Shown piece after piece: positions 2,779-33,000 of a DNA stretch of 41,392 nt (the stretch's first letter is position 1; each line of letters starts with the position of its first letter). The translations under genes were made by a program, and so were the position numbers. The notes beneath the pieces were generated by a model. The model had not been told where the DNA came from and did not search any database. It saw only the letters and a list, made by a program, of their open reading frames with translations. Source of the DNA: an uncultured Candidatus Altimarinota bacterium (lineage in GTDB: Bacteria > Patescibacteriota > Gracilibacteria > CAIRYL01); NCBI GenBank assembly GCA_947311245.1, contig CAMZKJ010000034.1, forward strand, positions 1-41,392, in the 5' to 3' direction.

Positions 2779-3831
2779 CTATTTAGTATCCAATTTTTTT
2801 GCAAAATTCTCAATCATTGTAATAGTTTTTTCTATTCCTATACATCCATCTGTAATAGAAACTCCTTTTTTTACATCATTAAGACTTGTACATACATTAA
2901 CATTTTGATTTCCATCTTCTATAAAACTTTCTACCATAAATCCTTTTATAGCAGTATATAAATTTGGTTCTTGGTTCATGCTTTCTAATACAGAATCTAA
3001 AATTTCAGGTTGTCGCAGTGGATCTTTTTTACCAGTGAGTGAATTAATAGAATTATCATGTGATAAATCTACAATAATAGCAGGATTTTCCACCTTTTTA
3101 GCAGCAAGTATTGTTGTCGCAGTAATCAAAGATTCAATATCATAATTACTTTTTCCATTTCCACCTCTTAAAATTAAATGAGCATATGGATTCCCATCTG
3201 TTTTAATTTGATTTCCTGCAATTGCAAAGTTATGCGGATATTGAGCCGCAATAACAGAATTAACACCTTTTTGAATATTTCCATCTGTTGAATTTTTCAT
3301 TCCTACAGGAATATCAAGCATCGAAGCAAAGATACGATGTTCTTGGTCTTCAGTACTTCGTGCACCAATTGCTACCCACGAATATAAATCAGTAAAGTAT
3401 CCTCGCTTATGTGTATATAAAATTTCATCAGCAATAGCATACCCCATTTCCATCACCTTCAGCATCATATCTCTGCAATATTCAAAGCCTTTTGCGATAT
3501 CTGCATCTTCAAATGGATTTGATTGATTCACAGGACCAACCCAACCAACTGTAGTTCGTGGTTTTTGAATATATACACGCATTACAAATTTAATAAGATG
3601 AGAATATTTCTCTTTTATTGGAAGTAATGCCTTTGCATATTCAATAACTGATTCAGAGGGCCATGCACTGCATGGACCTATAATCATGATTTTTCGAGAA
3701 TCTTTTCCTTCCAAGATATTTTGAATATCTTGAATATCATTTTGAACCTGCTCTCTTAATTGTTCAGTCAAAGGAAATTTTGAATGAAGTTCTTCAACCG
3801 TTGGAAGTTTCTTAATAATTTGATAAGACAT
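2779..3831 (-). CDS. aroG: 3-deoxy-7-phosphoheptulonate (DAHP) synthase, class I
   Basis: The enzyme condenses phosphoenolpyruvate and erythrose 4-phosphate, the first step of the shikimate pathway to aromatic amino acids and folate precursors. The 350-residue length matches the AroF/G/H family. Recognisable segments are IGPCSAW (51-57, with the metal-binding Cys54), KPRTTVGW (90-97), AIGARST (154-160), GMKNSTDG (177-184) and LILRGGN. The segment after KPRTTVGW reads VGP where E. coli AroG has KGL, so the PEP-contacting lysine known in E. coli is absent; some AroG-type subgroups share WxGP, so this need not mean inactivity. The gene is preceded by a leader ORF and terminator that look like a Phe/Tyr attenuator. 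The only other gene of aromatic metabolism here is the PabB/TrpE-type gene at 31564. Confidence 0.93.
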   Translation of the reverse strand: MSYQIIKKLPTVEELHSKFPLTEQLREQVQNDIQDIQNILEGKDSRKIMIIGPCSAWPSESVIEYAKALLPIKEKYSHLIKFVMRVYIQKPRTTVGWVGPVNQSNPFEDADIAKGFEYCRDMMLKVMEMGYAIADEILYTHKRGYFTDLYSWVAIGARSTEDQEHRIFASMLDIPVGMKNSTDGNIQKGVNSVIAAQYPHNFAIAGNQIKTDGNPYAHLILRGGNGKSNYDIESLITATTILAAKKVENPAIIVDLSHDNSINSLTGKKDPLRQPEILDSVLESMNQEPNLYTAIKGFMVESFIEDGNQNVNVCTSLNDVKKGVSITDGCIGIEKTITMIENFAKKLDTK

Positions 3832-3855: not shown

Positions 3856-3903
3856 TAAAAAAAACTCCTCTATCCTATGCTACATAGGAATAATAGAGAA
3901 GTT
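3856..3903 (-). terminator. rho-independent terminator of the DAHP synthase leader (arms 3:4)
   Basis: Reading on the minus strand, AACTTCTCTAT (3893-3903) pairs with ATAGAGGAGTT (3863-3873) with one G-U pair, and CCTATG pairs with CATAGG around a 3-base loop. A 4-base bulge separates the two helices. Eight U (3857-3864) follow at once. The U run ends 25 bases before the aroG start codon, so firing of this terminator would silence aroG. It can also serve as the end of the rpsF-rpsR-rpmE transcript. Confidence 0.85.
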
Positions 3904-3938
3904 TTATATTGTATTTATAAAAATGAGTGTAATACAAA

Positions 3939-3973
3939 CCTCTCTCTATCTATCAAAATAATAGAAAGAGAAG
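3939..3973 (-). promoter_or_regulatory. leader hairpin 1:2 of the aroG attenuator, with alternative 2:3 pairing
   Basis: Arm 1 (3961-3973 on the minus strand, CTTCTCTTTCTAT) pairs with arm 2 (3939-3953, ATAGATAGAGAGAGG) with one T-T mismatch. Arm 1 is made of the Phe, Ser and Tyr codons of the leader ORF, and arm 2 contains its stop codon. Arm 2 can instead pair with the left arm of the terminator: AAACTTCTCTAT (3893-3904) matches ATAGAGAG plus GTTT from arm 2, skipping two bases. The two folds exclude each other, as in trp/phe-type attenuators. Seen in sequence; the mechanism is inferred. Confidence 0.75.
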
Positions 3974-4008
3974 AAGAAAGTACCAAATAATAAATTTCGT
4001 GTAATCAT
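3946..4008 (-). CDS. putative Phe/Tyr-rich leader peptide of the DAHP synthase gene
   Basis: A 20-codon ORF with an ATG start at 4008 and TAG stop at 3946-3948. Residues 11-18 read FFFSFYYF, five Phe and two Tyr codons in eight. The ORF lies 17 bases after the rpmE stop and 114 bases before the aroG start. Known analogues are the pheA and pheST leader peptides, where ribosome stalling at Phe codons prevents the terminator from forming. Here the stall codons form arm 1 of the upstream hairpin and the stop lies in arm 2, the expected geometry. No Shine-Dalgarno site is visible, which is usual in this window. The region is T/C-rich, so some Phe and Ser codons are expected by chance. Transcription probably enters from the rpmE side, because the only TATAAT nearby overlaps the ATG itself. 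Confidence 0.7.
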   Translation of the reverse strand: MITRNLLFGTFFFSFYYFDR

Positions 4009-4025
4009 TATATAAATACGTTAAA

Positions 4026-4238
4026 TTATTTTTTTGCTGCAGCTTCTCGAGCTCGGAACCGATCCATTCGACCAGCTGTATCAATAGTTCGAGTTTTTCC
4101 AGTATAAAATGGATGACATTCAGAACATAAATCAATATTTACTTCATCTGCCATTGTAGAGTTAATTACATGTTTTGCTCCACAACCACAAATAAATGTA
4201 GTTTTTGTATATTCAGGGTGTATTCCTTGTTTTGCCAT
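4026..4238 (-). CDS. rpmE: 50S ribosomal protein L31
   Basis: The 70-residue protein begins MAKQGIHPEY, typical of bL31. It keeps the zinc-binding cysteines (C17, C19, C38, C41, in CGC and CSEC), so it is the zinc-containing 'C+' form. It is the last gene of the rpsF-rpsR-rpmE cluster, 68 bases after rpsR. The aroG leader ORF begins 17 bases past its stop. Confidence 0.95.
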   Translation of the reverse strand: MAKQGIHPEYTKTTFICGCGAKHVINSTMADEVNIDLCSECHPFYTGKTRTIDTAGRMDRFRAREAAAKK

Positions 4239-7150: not shown

Positions 7151-10100
7151 TTATATAAGAGAGCCCCTTTTATTTTTGTAATTTTCTACAAATTGATACG
7201 GAACAACACTCGCATCAGCTCCCCATTTCCCAGACTCTTCAACTCCAGAAACACCTTTTCCAAAATAAATATCTTGAGCCGCGTTTACAACCGATAACAC
7301 ATTTTTTTTTGCATCTGGATGATCGAGAAAAAAATGGTTAAAAATTTTATTTACAATAATAGCATATTGTTGATCTATATTTCCCGATGTTTTCAACTCT
7401 GGAACAAATTCTCCCTTAAAAATATAATTTTTCACATAAGTATCCTTTCGTAAATCCTCCCATCTTTTCTTAAAACCATCTGCATCATGATCATAACTCC
7501 CTGCAAATAAAAATGTATCAGCCAAGTCTTTAAACTTTTTAGTATACACATTTGAATAAATTGCTCTTCCCATCTTCAAATAATCCTCAGTCTTCAAACT
7601 TCCACTATAACCATCTCCCGCACGAGGCTTATCTTTTAAAAAATCATCAGTTGCCTTAAATTTAGACTTTGAAGAATCGAGACGAGAATTTATAAGCGCA
7701 TCTGTGGCAGAAAAAAAACCAGCTTGCCGAGCAATATCTTTTTGCAAAATTTGAAAATCAAAATTATTATTATCTCCATTATAATCTTGATTTGACAGCC
7801 CTAATATATGCTGAACTTGACCATAAATAGCCTGATTAAACAATGTCGATTTTGTTTCCAAATTTCCAGTAGATGCTTGTGCCAGCATTTGACCCGCTGT
7901 ATCTGCTCTTCCAACCGATGCCAATAAACCAGCATTATCATGATCAAATTTACCAGCACCTTTCTGCCCTAAATTTATAAACGTCCTCGCTACAGTAGAA
8001 GGAAGAGTCATTATATTTGCATGCACCCACCCACCCCATATTTCTGGTGGACCATCCCATGCATTGCGATAACTCCCATCTTTATTTTTCATAACTGCTT
8101 CCATTGCATTATGAGCATCACTTTTTGAGTAACCAGCCAAACCGTTAAACGGAGGAAATACATTTCCATAATATCCATAAAAACGCGGAAAGGCAGAAAC
8201 CTCTAAAAGCCCTGTATAAACACCTGCAATTAAATAATACAAATAATTTGCAGGATCAGTTGTTCCATCTCCTATCATAAGTTTTATAAATCCTTCATAA
8301 ACATTTGGATTCACAAATTCTCCATGCTCATGTTTGTATAACCATTCCAACATTTGCTGAGGATTACCTCCACGAACTGCGGCTACAGAAACAGCATCAT
8401 TTGTCTTAGAATCAATTGCATTCTTATTATCAGAATAAAAATTATAAAATAAATCATTTTCACCATATACATCTAAAAATGCTTTTTGAAACTTATTATT
8501 TAACGCTGTCTCCTCTCCTTCTTTATATAAAAAATCATTTTCATAAAAACGAATATGCGATCCATACGAATTTAGTTTTCTGGCATATACTCTATTTCCA
8601 TCATCATCTTGCCTTCCCCAATCCATCAAACCTCGCGAAGACATTTCTGCTATATACGCTTTAAACGAATCTTCATTCCCTATATTAAAAAATTCATTTA
8701 TTAGATCTCCATCATCTAATAATTTATACGCTCCCTGAAATTCTTCAATCTCTGCATTTTTTGCTACATCTTGCTGTTTTCCAAAATCGGTTGCAAGACC
8801 AGGAGCTATTCCACTTGCCATAGCTGCACCAACTGCACCAACCCTCTCTTTATTCGTTCTTGCATGCCGTCGCAAAAAATAATTCCACCATTGCTTTGCT
8901 ATATCAATAACATTGTCCCCACTCAAGAAACGAGTATTTTTCCATGCCCTCGAAAATACATTTCCTGGTGCAACATCAAATCGAGATAATTCCGATGCAT
9001 ATTTTTCTGCCTGCCCCCGCAAATCTTTTGTAAATTCTATAACCATATCCGCTCTATTTTCTGTAGATGTCTTCCTTGGATCATTAAAATATCGAATTAC
9101 CTCCTGCATTGATTTTTCTAAATCTTTTACTGCCTCTCCTAAGTTAGCCCCAGCAGGACCAGAAATATAAGACTTCGCATCCTTTAATTGCTCTATATAT
9201 CCTAATAAAGTATCATCCATTTCTTTTCGATATTCCCCTTTTTCATTTCCATAAATCAATACATTTAACGCTTCTTGCTTTTCCTGTTTTTTTGCTGATG
9301 TATAAAAATCTGGATTATTTCTTTTTAACTCTTCTAATTCTTTTTCCTTCTTTTGCTTTTCAGATTCTTCTTTAAAATATTCTTCTGCAGTTCTTTCATC
9401 AGCATTTCGACCATCTGTTGATAAATTTTTTACAACCTCACCCCTTTCTTGTTCTTTATATAAAGAGAGATTAAATATTTTTTGCAACTTAGATTCATCA
9501 ACATGAGAAAAAACAGTCTCAAGAAGAGAGTCTTTTTCAATAAAATTATTTTTTGCATTATCATCGAATTGCAACAATGAACACACTTCAGCCAATAATT
9601 CTTCTATATTATTTTCTAATATTTCATCGCCATATACTTTATTTACTCTCTCTAAAAAAATAGAATATTCTTTCCCAAAACTTTCTTTCAAAAGATGTGT
9701 AAATCTCAAAATCATCAGCCCATTTTTTGCAATCATGCTATGTCCTACTTCATGAAAAATATCACCTAAATTTTCTTGAAAAGACCTACTCTCATCAGAA
9801 TATTTTAATTTATGTAAATCCTTACTGTGATCAAAATTCTGCAATTCCTCAAAAATATGTTTCTCTAATACTATTTGATTTTTCTTCGGATAATACGCTG
9901 TTTTATCTCCATCAATAATACAAAACTCTCCAAATTTATTCTTTACTTTCATTAAATCTTGTAATACTGAAATAGACTCAGCTGTTACTCCATTTTTTTC
10001 AGCTATAAATTGAAATAATATTTTTTCTGGAAGTAACGATTCTTCAGATGTAAAAATATCTGGAGATATTCCAGTTAAAAATACATACAAATTTTTTCCT

Positions 10101-12430
10101 CCTGTTTTATCGCGCATATCTTTTTCAAATTCACTCGTAATACTTTCTATTAAATCGTTAACACTTTCTTCACTATATTGCACAGAAAGTTTTTTAATTT
10201 CAGCATTCACAAATTCCAACCGTTTCTCTTTTTCTTGTGCATTTTTTACATCTATAAAATCATGTAATTTCAAAGAAATAAATTTCTCTGTTTCCGACTT
10301 TCCAGAATGAAGCGAATAATTTTCTACATCTTTTTTCACAGATTTATAATTGTTTTCCAATTCTTTTAAAATTTTTTGTATTTCAATAAAATAAAGATTC
10401 TTTACATCTCCATCATATTTATTAATTATTTCATGCAAAACAATTCCAACATTACGAATAGCTTTTATCTTACGATCTACTAATTTTGCAGTATTTTCAA
10501 AAAATGTATATGTTTCTTTCAATTTTCCAGTAATTCCATCTTCTGTAAATTTTCCAGTCTCTTTCGCATATGCCACTACATCTTCTCCAACTCTGTATAC
10601 AGAATTCACAACATCTCTTATACCGCTTTCTATACGATTTTTTGTAAAAAATCTAAGAACATTATCCGACACTTTTCCAGTTTTTGAAAACTCTCTTCCA
10701 TATCGCAACAATACATCTTTCGGAATAATAATATCGCCAACACCTGAAACAAGGTTATTCAAAATATATTTATTATGCTCTCCTCCAATCCAATCTCCTA
10801 AAAAAGTATTTGCAGCTATAAAATATTCAGGACGGTATTCTAAATTTTCTTCTCCACAAATAGCTACAATTCCCTTATCTGTTAGAATATTTTTACTTTT
10901 TACAAAATCGAATAATTTTCCAACACATTTTGGATCTTCTTTTTTCAATTCTTTATACTCAGACGATTCCAATATAGTAGTCATAATACTCGTATCTTCC
11001 GAATATTGAAGTCTTTGCCCAACTACTAAATCTTCAAATATTTTTCTTTTTGATTCTATACCTTCTACAATAGAAATATCTTCTTCTGTAAGAATATTTA
11101 AATTTTTTATTGCCTCTCTTTGAGATGCTGTTCTTCCTCCTTGCGTTAAAAAATGTAATACCGGTAAATATGAATTTTGCACTTTTGACAAAGAAAGTGC
11201 TTCTAAATATTCATAAAATATACCAAATTCTTCCTCTATTCTTTTTTTCTTTATATCTCTCTCTTTCGGAGAATACCCAATCATAAGACTCAACGAAAAC
11301 TGCAATACTTTTTGTTGTTTTTCTGCATATTTTTTTGCTATATCAATTTCTCTTTTTTTAATAGCTTCTATAGATGGTTTTATTTCTTCATTAATATATG
11401 AAAAATATGCAATACTTCGTTGCTCAAAGTCGGTTTTTGCATGCTCATTCATACGCTCTTCTGCTCCATTCGCAACCTCTGCACCCAAAAAATTTCGAAC
11501 CTTCGCCAGCATTTCCGCTTCTTTTTTTTGTAAACCAATATTTCGTGCGCGCAAATCATCTGAATCTTCATCAAGCGGTTTCAAAACTAACTCTTGAATT
11601 GATTCTTTATTTTTTTTCATTTCTTTTAACAATTTTTTCACATAATCAAACTCTTCAATCTCTTTATCTCTAATAATTTCTGCCTGTATATCTTCTCTTT
11701 TTTTTCCTGATATTCGCTCTTCAACAATATATAAATCTACAAATTTATCAAAAATAATACTCTTATTTTTATCGGAAATATCATCATTTGCTAAAATATC
11801 TGTTAAATCTTCATGTAAAGATTTATATAAATCTTCTGAATTTTCAATTTTTGCAAAAAGTTTTAAAAATAATGCTAAATCAACATCTTCATCTAAACGA
11901 CTTATAATATTTTCAAGACCAACTTCTGCAATAACATCTACCTCATTTGGTAAAAATAAACCACCAGAATGAATACTTGAACGAAGAGAATCAACTTTTT
12001 TATCATTTTTTTTAGCAATTTCTTGCGTAGAATTTTCTAAAACATCTTTCGCAAAATCTTTTATTTTATCTTTTTCTATACTATTTATAATATTCAGAGA
12101 TACTACTTCCAATACTTTTGCTTTTCGCAATAGCTCTATTTTCTTTTGAATACTTTTTTCTAATATTTGCTTTTTCTTAAAAGAAGGTTCCGAAAATAAT
12201 TTTTCTATTTCTTTTTGTAATAATTTTTCATCACCGACAAATGCCTTTGCCTCTATTTTTGCTAGTTTTTCCTCCCCCTCTGCTTCCTTTTTTTTCTTTT
12301 CTTCCTGCTTATTATATTGCTCGAACATTCTTTTCGCAAAAAAAATATTTCTATGTGCTGTAAAAATATGACAAAAATCATCAGTATATAGCATTTTGCC
12401 TGAATAATGTAATACTTGTCTATTTATCAT
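7151..12430 (-). CDS. 1759-residue orphan protein with HEVGH metallopeptidase motif
   Basis: I do not recognise a family for the whole protein. The N-terminal half (to about residue 880) is Lys/Glu/Ile-rich and predicted mostly helical or coiled-coil. At 893-897 stands HEVGH, the HExxH zinc signature, in the helix-like context GDIFHEVGHSMIAKNG. About 50 residues on, the acidic segment EELLAE (943-948) could give the third zinc ligand, as in gluzincin peptidases. The C-terminal third is rich in Asn, Gly and aromatic residues, with motifs unlike the N-terminal half. No signal peptide or sure membrane segment is seen. The start at 12430 lies 76 bases after the surface-protein stop; M35 is an alternative start. 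A common transcript from the promoter near 13920 is likely. A role in secretion, attachment or host interaction is only a guess. Confidence 0.75.
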   Translation of the reverse strand: MINRQVLHYSGKMLYTDDFCHIFTAHRNIFFAKRMFEQYNKQEEKKKKEAEGEEKLAKIEAKAFVGDEKLLQKEIEKLFSEPSFKKKQILEKSIQKKIELLRKAKVLEVVSLNIINSIEKDKIKDFAKDVLENSTQEIAKKNDKKVDSLRSSIHSGGLFLPNEVDVIAEVGLENIISRLDEDVDLALFLKLFAKIENSEDLYKSLHEDLTDILANDDISDKNKSIIFDKFVDLYIVEERISGKKREDIQAEIIRDKEIEEFDYVKKLLKEMKKNKESIQELVLKPLDEDSDDLRARNIGLQKKEAEMLAKVRNFLGAEVANGAEERMNEHAKTDFEQRSIAYFSYINEEIKPSIEAIKKREIDIAKKYAEKQQKVLQFSLSLMIGYSPKERDIKKKRIEEEFGIFYEYLEALSLSKVQNSYLPVLHFLTQGGRTASQREAIKNLNILTEEDISIVEGIESKRKIFEDLVVGQRLQYSEDTSIMTTILESSEYKELKKEDPKCVGKLFDFVKSKNILTDKGIVAICGEENLEYRPEYFIAANTFLGDWIGGEHNKYILNNLVSGVGDIIIPKDVLLRYGREFSKTGKVSDNVLRFFTKNRIESGIRDVVNSVYRVGEDVVAYAKETGKFTEDGITGKLKETYTFFENTAKLVDRKIKAIRNVGIVLHEIINKYDGDVKNLYFIEIQKILKELENNYKSVKKDVENYSLHSGKSETEKFISLKLHDFIDVKNAQEKEKRLEFVNAEIKKLSVQYSEESVNDLIESITSEFEKDMRDKTGGKNLYVFLTGISPDIFTSEESLLPEKILFQFIAEKNGVTAESISVLQDLMKVKNKFGEFCIIDGDKTAYYPKKNQIVLEKHIFEELQNFDHSKDLHKLKYSDESRSFQENLGDIFHEVGHSMIAKNGLMILRFTHLLKESFGKEYSIFLERVNKVYGDEILENNIEELLAEVCSLLQFDDNAKNNFIEKDSLLETVFSHVDESKLQKIFNLSLYKEQERGEVVKNLSTDGRNADERTAEEYFKEESEKQKKEKELEELKRNNPDFYTSAKKQEKQEALNVLIYGNEKGEYRKEMDDTLLGYIEQLKDAKSYISGPAGANLGEAVKDLEKSMQEVIRYFNDPRKTSTENRADMVIEFTKDLRGQAEKYASELSRFDVAPGNVFSRAWKNTRFLSGDNVIDIAKQWWNYFLRRHARTNKERVGAVGAAMASGIAPGLATDFGKQQDVAKNAEIEEFQGAYKLLDDGDLINEFFNIGNEDSFKAYIAEMSSRGLMDWGRQDDDGNRVYARKLNSYGSHIRFYENDFLYKEGEETALNNKFQKAFLDVYGENDLFYNFYSDNKNAIDSKTNDAVSVAAVRGGNPQQMLEWLYKHEHGEFVNPNVYEGFIKLMIGDGTTDPANYLYYLIAGVYTGLLEVSAFPRFYGYYGNVFPPFNGLAGYSKSDAHNAMEAVMKNKDGSYRNAWDGPPEIWGGWVHANIMTLPSTVARTFINLGQKGAGKFDHDNAGLLASVGRADTAGQMLAQASTGNLETKSTLFNQAIYGQVQHILGLSNQDYNGDNNNFDFQILQKDIARQAGFFSATDALINSRLDSSKSKFKATDDFLKDKPRAGDGYSGSLKTEDYLKMGRAIYSNVYTKKFKDLADTFLFAGSYDHDADGFKKRWEDLRKDTYVKNYIFKGEFVPELKTSGNIDQQYAIIVNKIFNHFFLDHPDAKKNVLSVVNAAQDIYFGKGVSGVEESGKWGADASVVPYQFVENYKNKRGSLI

Positions 12431-12506: not shown

Positions 12507-13838
12507 TTACACTTCTTTTCTTGCAAATATCACATACATACCAGAAAGAAAAATCATTACACCTCCTAACAATAATAATACTATCTGAATATTTATCCCC
12601 GATTGAATATTTCTATTTCCAGTAATTACCGTATTTTTTTGTACAGAATTTTGCGTTACATCTGCATAATATGCTTTATTTTTTTCAATATCTTCGCCTA
12701 TTTTTTCAGCATTAGGGAAAATTTGTTCAAAAAATGGATGAGATGAACTCCCCGCATTTCCTGTAATTACAGATGTTTCATTGGAAAAATCTGAAACTGT
12801 TCCATTTGCAGAATATGCCTGAACGGCAAAAAATATTTTTCTATCTTTTTTAAAAAAGTTTTTATCAAATGTATATGTATTCGTTTTCCCCATATCTCGT
12901 CTATGCATATATGTTCCAGAGGTTGTTGAATAATATAAATAATATCCTTTTACTTTTGGATCCTGATTCAACTCCCATATCATTTGAATTTCTCCATTCT
13001 CAAATGTTCGTGTTCGAAAACCTGTCGGCTGTGATAAAAATGTAACTGTATCTTCATTATTTTCCACTGAATTCACTGAATTCGAAGTATGTACTGAAGT
13101 ATTATCTACTGCAATATCCACATTTTGATTTCTATTTTGTAGAGTATTATTACTCCCCATATTATTACCACTATTTATAGCAATATTTACTGATTTTTCC
13201 TCCTGCGTATTTTTTGATGTCACCATTACAGCAGATGATTTTAAATTTTTAAAAACTAAATTTTTTGGCTGTGTTTCTACGATATTTGCAGGAATATTTC
13301 CATGAATCGTTACAACTGCTGTTTTACCGATAGAGTCCTTTTTAAAGTCTAAAAATTGCAGAGTTGTTAAATTAGGATTTTTTTTTATTTCAACATCAAA
13401 ATCTGCAACAATAATTTCAGAATCTGTAAGAGAAGATCCTGTTGTGGCTCTTCCAATTCGCACTTCACCTTTTGAATTTATAACCTTAAACTCTCCAGGA
13501 GCCGCAAGGTCAAATGCACTTTCCTCATCATTTAAACCCGAAAGAGAAAGAACTGATGAATTAAATTTTAGCCAACTTTGAACAGAAAAGACTGGTGCAT
13601 TTTCTGGATTTTTAATAACAATTCTCAGTGAAATTTTTTCCCCTACTTCAAATTTTTTTTCTAATCGAGAGTTTTTAATATCTGTACATACATTATTTTC
13701 ACAATATTGAAATTCTAGTGTTGTAATATTTTCTGAATTTGCAAAAGTACTCGATATAAAACCAAAGCAGAATAGAAATACAAAAAAGAACGCCGTTGTT
13801 ATTTTTTTTACACTTTGAGTATTTGTCATAAAATTCAT
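12507..13838 (-). CDS. secreted, membrane-anchored surface protein with cohesin-like and FN3-like domains
   Basis: The 443-residue protein has an N-terminal signal peptide (hydrophobic core FFFVFLFCFGFISS, likely cleaved after FA near residue 33). Residues about 38-165 look like a cohesin or carbohydrate-binding-type beta-sandwich (VGEKISLRIVIKN, SLSGLN, GEVRIGRATTGS). A Ser/Asn-rich linker follows, then a fibronectin type III-like domain (about 265-350, PTGFRTRTFENGEIQMIWELN ... YYLYYSTTSGTY ... FFAVQAY). The C-terminus is one transmembrane helix (about 417-437) with the short tail ARKEV. This is a type-I anchored exported protein, probably exposed on the cell surface. It heads the operon with the 1759-residue gene. 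Downstream of its TAA stop the same frame stays open for 24 Lys/Arg-rich codons. Confidence 0.75.
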   Translation of the reverse strand: MNFMTNTQSVKKITTAFFFVFLFCFGFISSTFANSENITTLEFQYCENNVCTDIKNSRLEKKFEVGEKISLRIVIKNPENAPVFSVQSWLKFNSSVLSLSGLNDEESAFDLAAPGEFKVINSKGEVRIGRATTGSSLTDSEIIVADFDVEIKKNPNLTTLQFLDFKKDSIGKTAVVTIHGNIPANIVETQPKNLVFKNLKSSAVMVTSKNTQEEKSVNIAINSGNNMGSNNTLQNRNQNVDIAVDNTSVHTSNSVNSVENNEDTVTFLSQPTGFRTRTFENGEIQMIWELNQDPKVKGYYLYYSTTSGTYMHRRDMGKTNTYTFDKNFFKKDRKIFFAVQAYSANGTVSDFSNETSVITGNAGSSSHPFFEQIFPNAEKIGEDIEKNKAYYADVTQNSVQKNTVITGNRNIQSGINIQIVLLLLGGVMIFLSGMYVIFARKEV

Positions 13839-31563: not shown

Positions 31564-33000
31564 ATGCAAAAACAATTTTATTTCAGATCTGCAACAAACA
31601 CAGAAAATAAAAATATGTATATTTCTCCTCTTGATGTATATGAATTTTTAAATACACAAAATTTATGCAAAGAATTACTATATTCAGGAACAGAAAGAGG
31701 AAAGTATTCATTTTTACCACTGGATAATCATAGAGAATTACGAGAAGAAAACTCTGAAATAAATAATTTTTCCAATATAAAAAATGTAGAAAAATATTTT
31801 ATAAAAAAACAAAAAGAATATAATTTACATTCTTTTACTCTGAACATTCCATATTGTGGAGGTCTTATTTCTGCATTTAGCTATGATTACGCATTAGAAA
31901 ATAACACGCAAAACAATACTGCATATTTTGCATTTTCAGATGTATTTCTTGTATTTGATCATGAAAAAAAAGAAATTTTAATATGTGGCTGGTTCGATAA
32001 TGAAATTTTTTGGAAACAATATTCTCAAAGAATTATAGAGCAAATACAAAAACTAGAAAAAAAAATAATACAATTAGAAAAACAAGAGAGTTACAATAAT
32101 ACACGTATAGAAAATATAAAATTTAAAAATATTATTTCAAAAAAACAATATTTCCAAGCGTTTCATACTATTCAAAAAGAAATTGTACGAGGAAATAGTT
32201 TTCAAATAAATTTATCGCAAGGATTTACTGCCGAAAAACCACAAGAAGTCTCTGCCTTTGAAATTTTTAAAAAAGCCACTGTTAAAAATCCCGCACCTAT
32301 GATGTGTTTTATAGAATGGGAACAAAACAAAGGCAACAAAAAAAATAAAAAATCTATTATTTCATGCAGTCCAGAACGATTATTTTCACTCAATAAACAG
32401 CGAAAAATGTTTACACAGCCTATTGCAGGAACCCGAAAATTAACACACAACACAATACAAGATGAAAAACTAGAACACGAATTAAAAAATTCTGCAAAAG
32501 AAACAGCTGAACACTCTATGATTGTAGATTTATTACGAAATGATTTTGGAAAAATTGCAGAATTTGGAAGTGTGAAAATAACAGAATTTGCACGCATAGA
32601 AAAATATGCAACAGTTATGCATTTGGTAACAGATATAGAAGCAACATTACCCAAAAGTAAATCTGCATTTGATGTATTTTCAGCAACTTTTCCCGGTGGA
32701 ACAATTACAGGGACTCCAAAAAAAGAAACTATAAAAATTTTAGAACAAGAAGAAATTCGAAAAAGAGGATATTATTGCGGTTCAGTAGGATATTTTTCCT
32801 TAGATGGACAAGCTGATTTTAATATTTTAATTCGAACACTCGAACAAACAGAAAATGAATTGTATGGGCGTGCAGGTGGCGGAATTGTATACGGAGCAAA
32901 TGCAGAAAATGAATACCTAGAAAGTTTGCACAAATGGGCAGGAATTACAAAAATCTTTTCTCAAAATAATTGTACGACACATACGACAACACAGTCGTAA
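31564..33000 (+). CDS. pabB: chorismate-binding enzyme: aminodeoxychorismate / anthranilate synthase component I
   Basis: The 478-residue protein carries the chorismate-utilising core: QYFQAFHTIQKEIVRGNSFQINLSQ, SPERLFSL, QPIAGTRK, IVDLLRNDFGKIAEFGSVK, HLVTDIEA, FPGGTITGTPK and GGGIVYGA. FPGGTITG favours PabB, but PIAGT (Ala, where E. coli PabB has the catalytic Lys of PIKGT) is the TrpE-like state, so anthranilate synthase is possible. No glutaminase subunit lies nearby. The last 13 residues lie antisense to the end of the acyltransferase gene. With the DAHP synthase gene it implies some aromatic or folate metabolism. Confidence 0.82.
   Translation: MQKQFYFRSATNTENKNMYISPLDVYEFLNTQNLCKELLYSGTERGKYSFLPLDNHRELREENSEINNFSNIKNVEKYFIKKQKEYNLHSFTLNIPYCGGLISAFSYDYALENNTQNNTAYFAFSDVFLVFDHEKKEILICGWFDNEIFWKQYSQRIIEQIQKLEKKIIQLEKQESYNNTRIENIKFKNIISKKQYFQAFHTIQKEIVRGNSFQINLSQGFTAEKPQEVSAFEIFKKATVKNPAPMMCFIEWEQNKGNKKNKKSIISCSPERLFSLNKQRKMFTQPIAGTRKLTHNTIQDEKLEHELKNSAKETAEHSMIVDLLRNDFGKIAEFGSVKITEFARIEKYATVMHLVTDIEATLPKSKSAFDVFSATFPGGTITGTPKKETIKILEQEEIRKRGYYCGSVGYFSLDGQADFNILIRTLEQTENELYGRAGGGIVYGANAENEYLESLHKWAGITKIFSQNNCTTHTTTQS

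Follow-up and report, generated by a model that had tools for sequence, protein, structure and literature searches.

A putative Phe/Tyr leader-peptide attenuator upstream of DAHP synthase in a Gracilibacteria genome, and similar leaders across the class

The gene for DAHP synthase in an uncultured Gracilibacteria-class bacterium is preceded by a short leader that, judged on its sequence, is very probably a classical ribosome-mediated transcription attenuator. Its translated part is rich in Phe and Tyr codons, its RNA can fold into the alternative hairpins of such a device, and corresponding leaders, with arms that change together, precede DAHP synthase genes in 15 families of the class. The leader was found in a window of 41,392 nucleotides (the whole stretch of DNA analysed), which belongs to a MAG of 885 kb that is 87% complete (G000). 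The identity of the downstream gene, proposed from the sequence by a first-pass annotation, holds: the product matches TIGR00034 (E 3e-87; 292 bits, cut-off 173) and NF009395 (352, cut-off 343). Since G000 also encodes chorismate synthase (aroC) and a TyrA-PheA fusion, this DAHP synthase can feed Phe/Tyr synthesis, and the gene behind the leader thus serves the making of the amino acids presumably sensed.

Leader, RNA arms and predicted folds

The features of the locus are as follows, all on the minus strand.

4026..4238, minus: rpmE (ribosomal protein L31), read from the sequence; 17 nt separate it from the leader ATG
3946..4008, minus: leader ORF MITRNLLFGTFFFSFYYFDR, ATG at 4008, 20 codons, TAG at 3948-3946
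3955..3978, minus: putative stall codons FFFSFYYF, leader codons 11-18 by the codon table
3959..3976, minus: arm 1, covering the Phe/Tyr stall codons; partner arm 2; 1:2 fold -14.9 kcal/mol
3939..3955, minus: arm 2, containing the UAG; partner arm 1 or arm 3; the 2:3 pairing reaches about 3931
3883..3905, minus: arm 3; partner arm 2 (antiterminator) or arm 4 (terminator)
3861..3879, minus: arm 4; with arm 3 it forms the stem of the intrinsic terminator, -19.5 kcal/mol
3857..3864, minus: U8 tract of the terminator, 25 nt before the DAHP synthase ATG at 3831
2779..3831, minus: DAHP synthase, type Ia (aroF/G/H family), the gene presumed to be regulated

Read from 4008 to 3946, the leader codons are ATG ATT ACA CGA AAT TTA TTA TTT GGT ACT TTC TTC TTC TCT TTC TAT TAT TTT GAT AGA TAG, so that eight of the 20 residues are Phe or Tyr. 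TTC accounts for four of the six leader Phe codons, whereas among the Phe codons of the window's ORFs 48 of 650 are TTC (p = 0.0004). A class-wide preference for TTC at stall codons was considered and rejected (133 seen, 122 expected).

Every structural element that the first-pass annotation had described was recovered, namely the 20-codon ORF, stall codons within arm 1 and the stop codon within arm 2, the pairing of arm 2 with arm 3, and a terminator with eight U shortly before the gene. The leader as a whole folds with z = -7.0, none of 200 dinucleotide shuffles being equally stable. For the 2:3 duplex, the energy is -16.2 kcal/mol where shuffled sequences average -7.9 (p = 0.004), and the 1:2 duplex, a protector or pause hairpin that includes the stall codons, is likewise significant in the window (p = 0.007). 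State folds, in which only the RNA left free at each ribosome position was folded, give 1:2 plus 3:4 for the untranslated leader. With the ribosome stalled at codons 11-17 and RNA polymerase just past arm 3, the minimum free energy structure is 2:3 (-13.1 kcal/mol for a stall at codons 11-13, -11.3 kcal/mol for a stall at Tyr16/17), and with the ribosome at the stop codon, arm 2 is covered and 3:4 is formed (-20.0 kcal/mol). Full-length equilibrium folds prefer 3:4 in every ribosome state; antitermination must therefore be kinetic, depending on co-transcriptional timing, as in known attenuators.

On this anatomy, a ribosome would translate MITRNLLFGTFFFSFYYFDR during transcription of the short leader by RNA polymerase. 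When charged tRNA-Phe (and tRNA-Tyr) is ample, the ribosome would proceed to the UAG and cover arm 2, leaving 3:4 to pair and transcription to end at the U8 tract, short of the gene. Under a shortage of charged tRNA-Phe/Tyr, it would stall on FFFSFYYF and cover arm 1; arm 2, left free, would pair with arm 3 ahead of the synthesis of arm 4, which would keep the terminator from forming and let DAHP synthase be transcribed. If the leader were not translated, 1:2 and 3:4 would form and transcription would stop. That transcription terminates, that the ribosome stalls and which tRNA is sensed are inferred here from the sequence. Charged tRNA-Phe is most likely sensed, since among 61 leaders of the class F occurs in all 61, Y in 60 and W in 37; tRNA-Tyr is probably sensed as well. 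The earlier proposal that aromatic synthesis is tied to tRNA charging is supported by sequence, its Tyr part as a probable reading.

Conservation across DAHP synthase loci of the class

The window-type DAHP synthase occurs in 78 of 353 genomes of the class, the one from a congener (G001) being 88% identical to that of the window, and 74 class loci have enough upstream sequence to form the type-Ia sample. An upstream ATG ORF with at least six F/Y/W within 10 codons was sought at each locus and in 100 shuffles per locus with dinucleotides kept. Such an ORF is present at 29 of the 74 loci (30 if L043 is included), compared with 0.67 expected from the shuffles and 0 on the reverse strand. Examples are MMYNTFFFWFFPYFYTK (G001), MIQKKFFFWFFVYFSLNKRRFY (G004), MKKNFFSYFFFRWTT (G043), MKIFAFDFFYFWFRASEQN (G087), MRNQFFFANYFYFLATAG (G064) and MNLMRQYSFFFFFRA (G084); in G002 and G003, the DAHP synthase gene ends at a contig edge and the leader is out of view. 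The 2:3 pairing is significant at p ≤ 0.05 in 27 of 28 testable type-Ia loci (Fisher 1e-34). It is also specific, with a mean of -16.9 kcal/mol for a locus's own arm 3 against -8.2 kcal/mol for the arm 3 of other families (0 of 20,000 permutations); loci from close relatives count here as non-independent, the families as independent. For the 1:2 pairing, support is weaker: it is significant in each of the three congeners, yet overall in only 10 of the 28 type-Ia loci. Within the genus, pairing in the outer 3:4 stem is mostly kept, with one change from A-U to G-C and one from A-U to G-U; congeners were paired each in its own register, and a three-sequence alignment, off by one base in arm 2, was left out of the covariation. 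The conservation of ORF and alternative pairings in relatives, named at the outset as the refutation test, is thus strongly positive. The leader is absent from about half of the class DAHP synthase loci, including those in longer operons, for example behind aroE (L013). In other classes of the phylum, the window-type enzyme is rare, and the two clear matches examined both lack a leader.

A second enzyme family, the type-Ib DAHP synthase (TIGR01361), is found in 97 of the 353 genomes, where it replaces or accompanies type Ia. Here 35 of 74 loci have an ORF that satisfies the type-Ia criterion, where 0.32 would be expected and the reverse strand gives 2; the match at L230 has no attenuator layout and was dropped, leaving 34, while about eight more loci with 5 of 10 aromatic codons show the layout and would bring the count to about 42 of 74. 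The 2:3 pairing is significant (p < 0.05) and own-arm specific in 31 of 33 type-Ib loci with a strict terminator; nine type-Ib leaders have no terminator by the strict test, though some show one by eye. When both enzymes are pooled, 58 of 61 testable loci have significant 2:3 complementarity, and the loci with the device span the 15 families mentioned above. Because type-Ia and type-Ib enzymes both carry it, the device follows the aromatic entry step rather than the gene. In five type-Ib loci of family f5 (L180, L181, L244, L245 and L246), the leaders are long and their aromatic run extends to the stop codon, and the hairpins are G+C-rich with weak U tracts; these loci may work by a variant mechanism.

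Four leaders (L062, L067, L071 and L072) come from genomes in which UGA is read as Gly; each carries an in-frame UGA between two Phe runs and ends at UAA. As predicted from these sequences, their attenuators depend on the reassigned code, and short Phe-rich leader ORFs of this kind in turn support the UGA=Gly reading.

Transcription supply and rival explanations

Just upstream of the ATG, 44 of 61 leaders have a TTGACA/TATAAT-like (sigma70-like) promoter with a score of 9 or more out of 12, compared with 8.9 expected. The most frequent distance from its -10 element to the leader ATG is about 15-18 nt, which would place the mRNA start only a few bases 5' of the ATG. The window's genus is without this promoter, and no convincing promoter was seen before the leader in the window. 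Given that rpmE lies directly upstream there, as it also does in the congeners L003 and L004, transcription probably enters from the ribosomal-protein operon; rpmE and the leader are likely co-transcribed, and supply from the rpsF-rpsR-rpmE operon is assumed for the window. Outside the genus, the gene upstream of the leader varies. The feed from a ribosomal-protein operon, part of the original proposal, would thus be particular to the window's genus, whereas most relatives have a sigma70-like promoter of their own near the leader.

The same arrangement could be read more simply. The hairpin would suit the end of the rpsF-rpsR-rpmE operon, and it might be the plain terminator of that operon, with DAHP synthase separately promoted and the Phe-rich ORF a product of chance in an AT-rich genome; the window is indeed 29% G+C and TTT-rich, and only 25 nt separate the U8 tract from the gene. 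Chance, however, accounts poorly for 29 ORFs where shuffles that keep dinucleotides give 0.67 and the reverse strand none, the device is kept where the upstream gene differs and also in G+C-rich relatives, and the match of arm 2 to arm 3 is locus-specific. Statistically, a plain terminator with a chance ORF is very unlikely, and we assign it a correspondingly slight probability. Alternatively, the ribosome on the leader might switch translation initiation or mRNA stability instead of transcription termination, as the f5 type-Ib loci L180, L244 and L246, which combine a leader and a hairpin with a poor U tract, would suggest. We regard this as hardly probable, since the window and most relatives have a canonical hairpin plus U tract 20-60 nt before the gene, and the start is not overlapped.

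T-box and other riboswitch elements precede aromatic genes in other phyla, and an RNA of this sort could sense uncharged tRNA or Phe directly, the ORF being incidental. However, what is conserved is the reading frame with its aromatic codons, while the rest of the RNA is not, and an Rfam scan of the window returned tRNA only, with no T-box and no regulatory family, which makes a direct sensor extremely improbable. Membership of the leader in Rfam RF01859 (Phe_leader) was rejected as well (15.1 bits against a cut-off of 55, E = 4.7). Ribosome-mediated attenuation of transcription is the reading that we adopt below.

Known attenuators and other aromatic loci

The device shares its logic and arm arrangement with E. 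coli trpL, which has Trp codons and controls the trp operon, whereas the window leader has Phe/Tyr codons and stands before DAHP synthase. It resembles enterobacterial pheL/pheA and pheM/pheST in the Phe-codon leader, the stop in arm 2, the 1:2/2:3/3:4 arms and the U tract, but those leaders control pheA and pheST. The closest counterpart is found in Corynebacterium glutamicum, where, according to PMC11802643 (citing Neshat et al. 2014; predicted earlier in PMC4046766), the aroR leader with Phe-Tyr-Phe attenuates the DAHP synthase gene aroF. Ribosome stalling is reported there under Phe limitation, and a shortage of Phe, but not one of Tyr, is said to have an effect (PMC11802643). As far as these accounts go, the likeness to aroR, a Phe/Tyr leader peptide before a DAHP synthase gene, is one of logic, with no common ancestry shown; the present device differs in phylum, in its longer Phe/Tyr runs, in standing before genes of two DAHP synthase families and in its occurrence in UGA=Gly genomes. 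The first-pass annotation had thought a DAHP synthase attenuator in such a genome to be new. On the accounts cited, the combination of gene and device is anticipated by aroR/aroF (PMC11802643, PMC4046766), and what is new is the lineage, the breadth, the use on two DAHP synthase families and the function under code 25. A full-text literature search, with subscription papers and preprints outside its scope, found no amino-acid attenuator described in CPR/Patescibacteria.

Taken more broadly, it seems somewhat probable that leader-peptide attenuation is the standard, and possibly ancestral, control of aromatic entry across this CPR class, acting on two DAHP synthase subfamilies and at least one tyrA-pheA fusion, with nearly leaderless mRNAs and UGA=Gly within the leader. 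In the window's genus, it would have been added behind the last gene of a ribosomal-protein operon, and the supply of Phe/Tyr would then gate a transcription that is linked to growth. The distribution over the class suggests a tRNA-charging sensor for the committed aromatic step that reduced genomes have retained, and the known range of leader-peptide attenuation would grow by one more major lineage. In a class usually called dependent on other cells, the leaders would also mark the members that make and regulate their own Phe/Tyr.

A general Phe/Tyr regulon was mostly rejected, as among about 50 loci of prephenate dehydratase (PDT, often a tyrA-pheA fusion) only one clear device is present. 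This is L086 in G006, a genome of the window's own family, with MKTIRSFIQAFFFYFFWASAEKVPVM and a terminator before a TyrA-PheA (prephenate dehydrogenase-dehydratase) fusion; a short ORF before the PDT gene of G043 (L087) is doubtful. A like leader also stands before the type-Ib DAHP synthase of G006 (L179), and this genome may have a two-gene Phe/Tyr regulon.

Several other frames were recorded in G000. On contig C31 (L182), one frame joins chorismate mutase type II and an anthranilate synthase I-type domain (PF01817 + PF04715), and a second chorismate-binding enzyme, at 31564-33000 of the window, has no leader. Also in the window, a minus-strand protein with a weak cohesin-domain match (12507-13838; PF00963, E 2e-5) adjoins a 1759-residue ORF on the same strand with no function assigned (7151-12430).

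At trpE loci, no Phe/Tyr leader was seen at the threshold of the ORF test. Trp leaders with terminators precede trpE at L160 (MNTYIVKNWWQLSTFRRRKS, G097), L166 (MIRTNTTWWNWNQKSRF, G296) and L198 (MTFSTLSWWQALNHSARR, G219), and at L160 and L166 the frame just upstream resembles, by eye, a TrpR-type repressor. From these sequences, trp attenuators appear to exist in CPR too.
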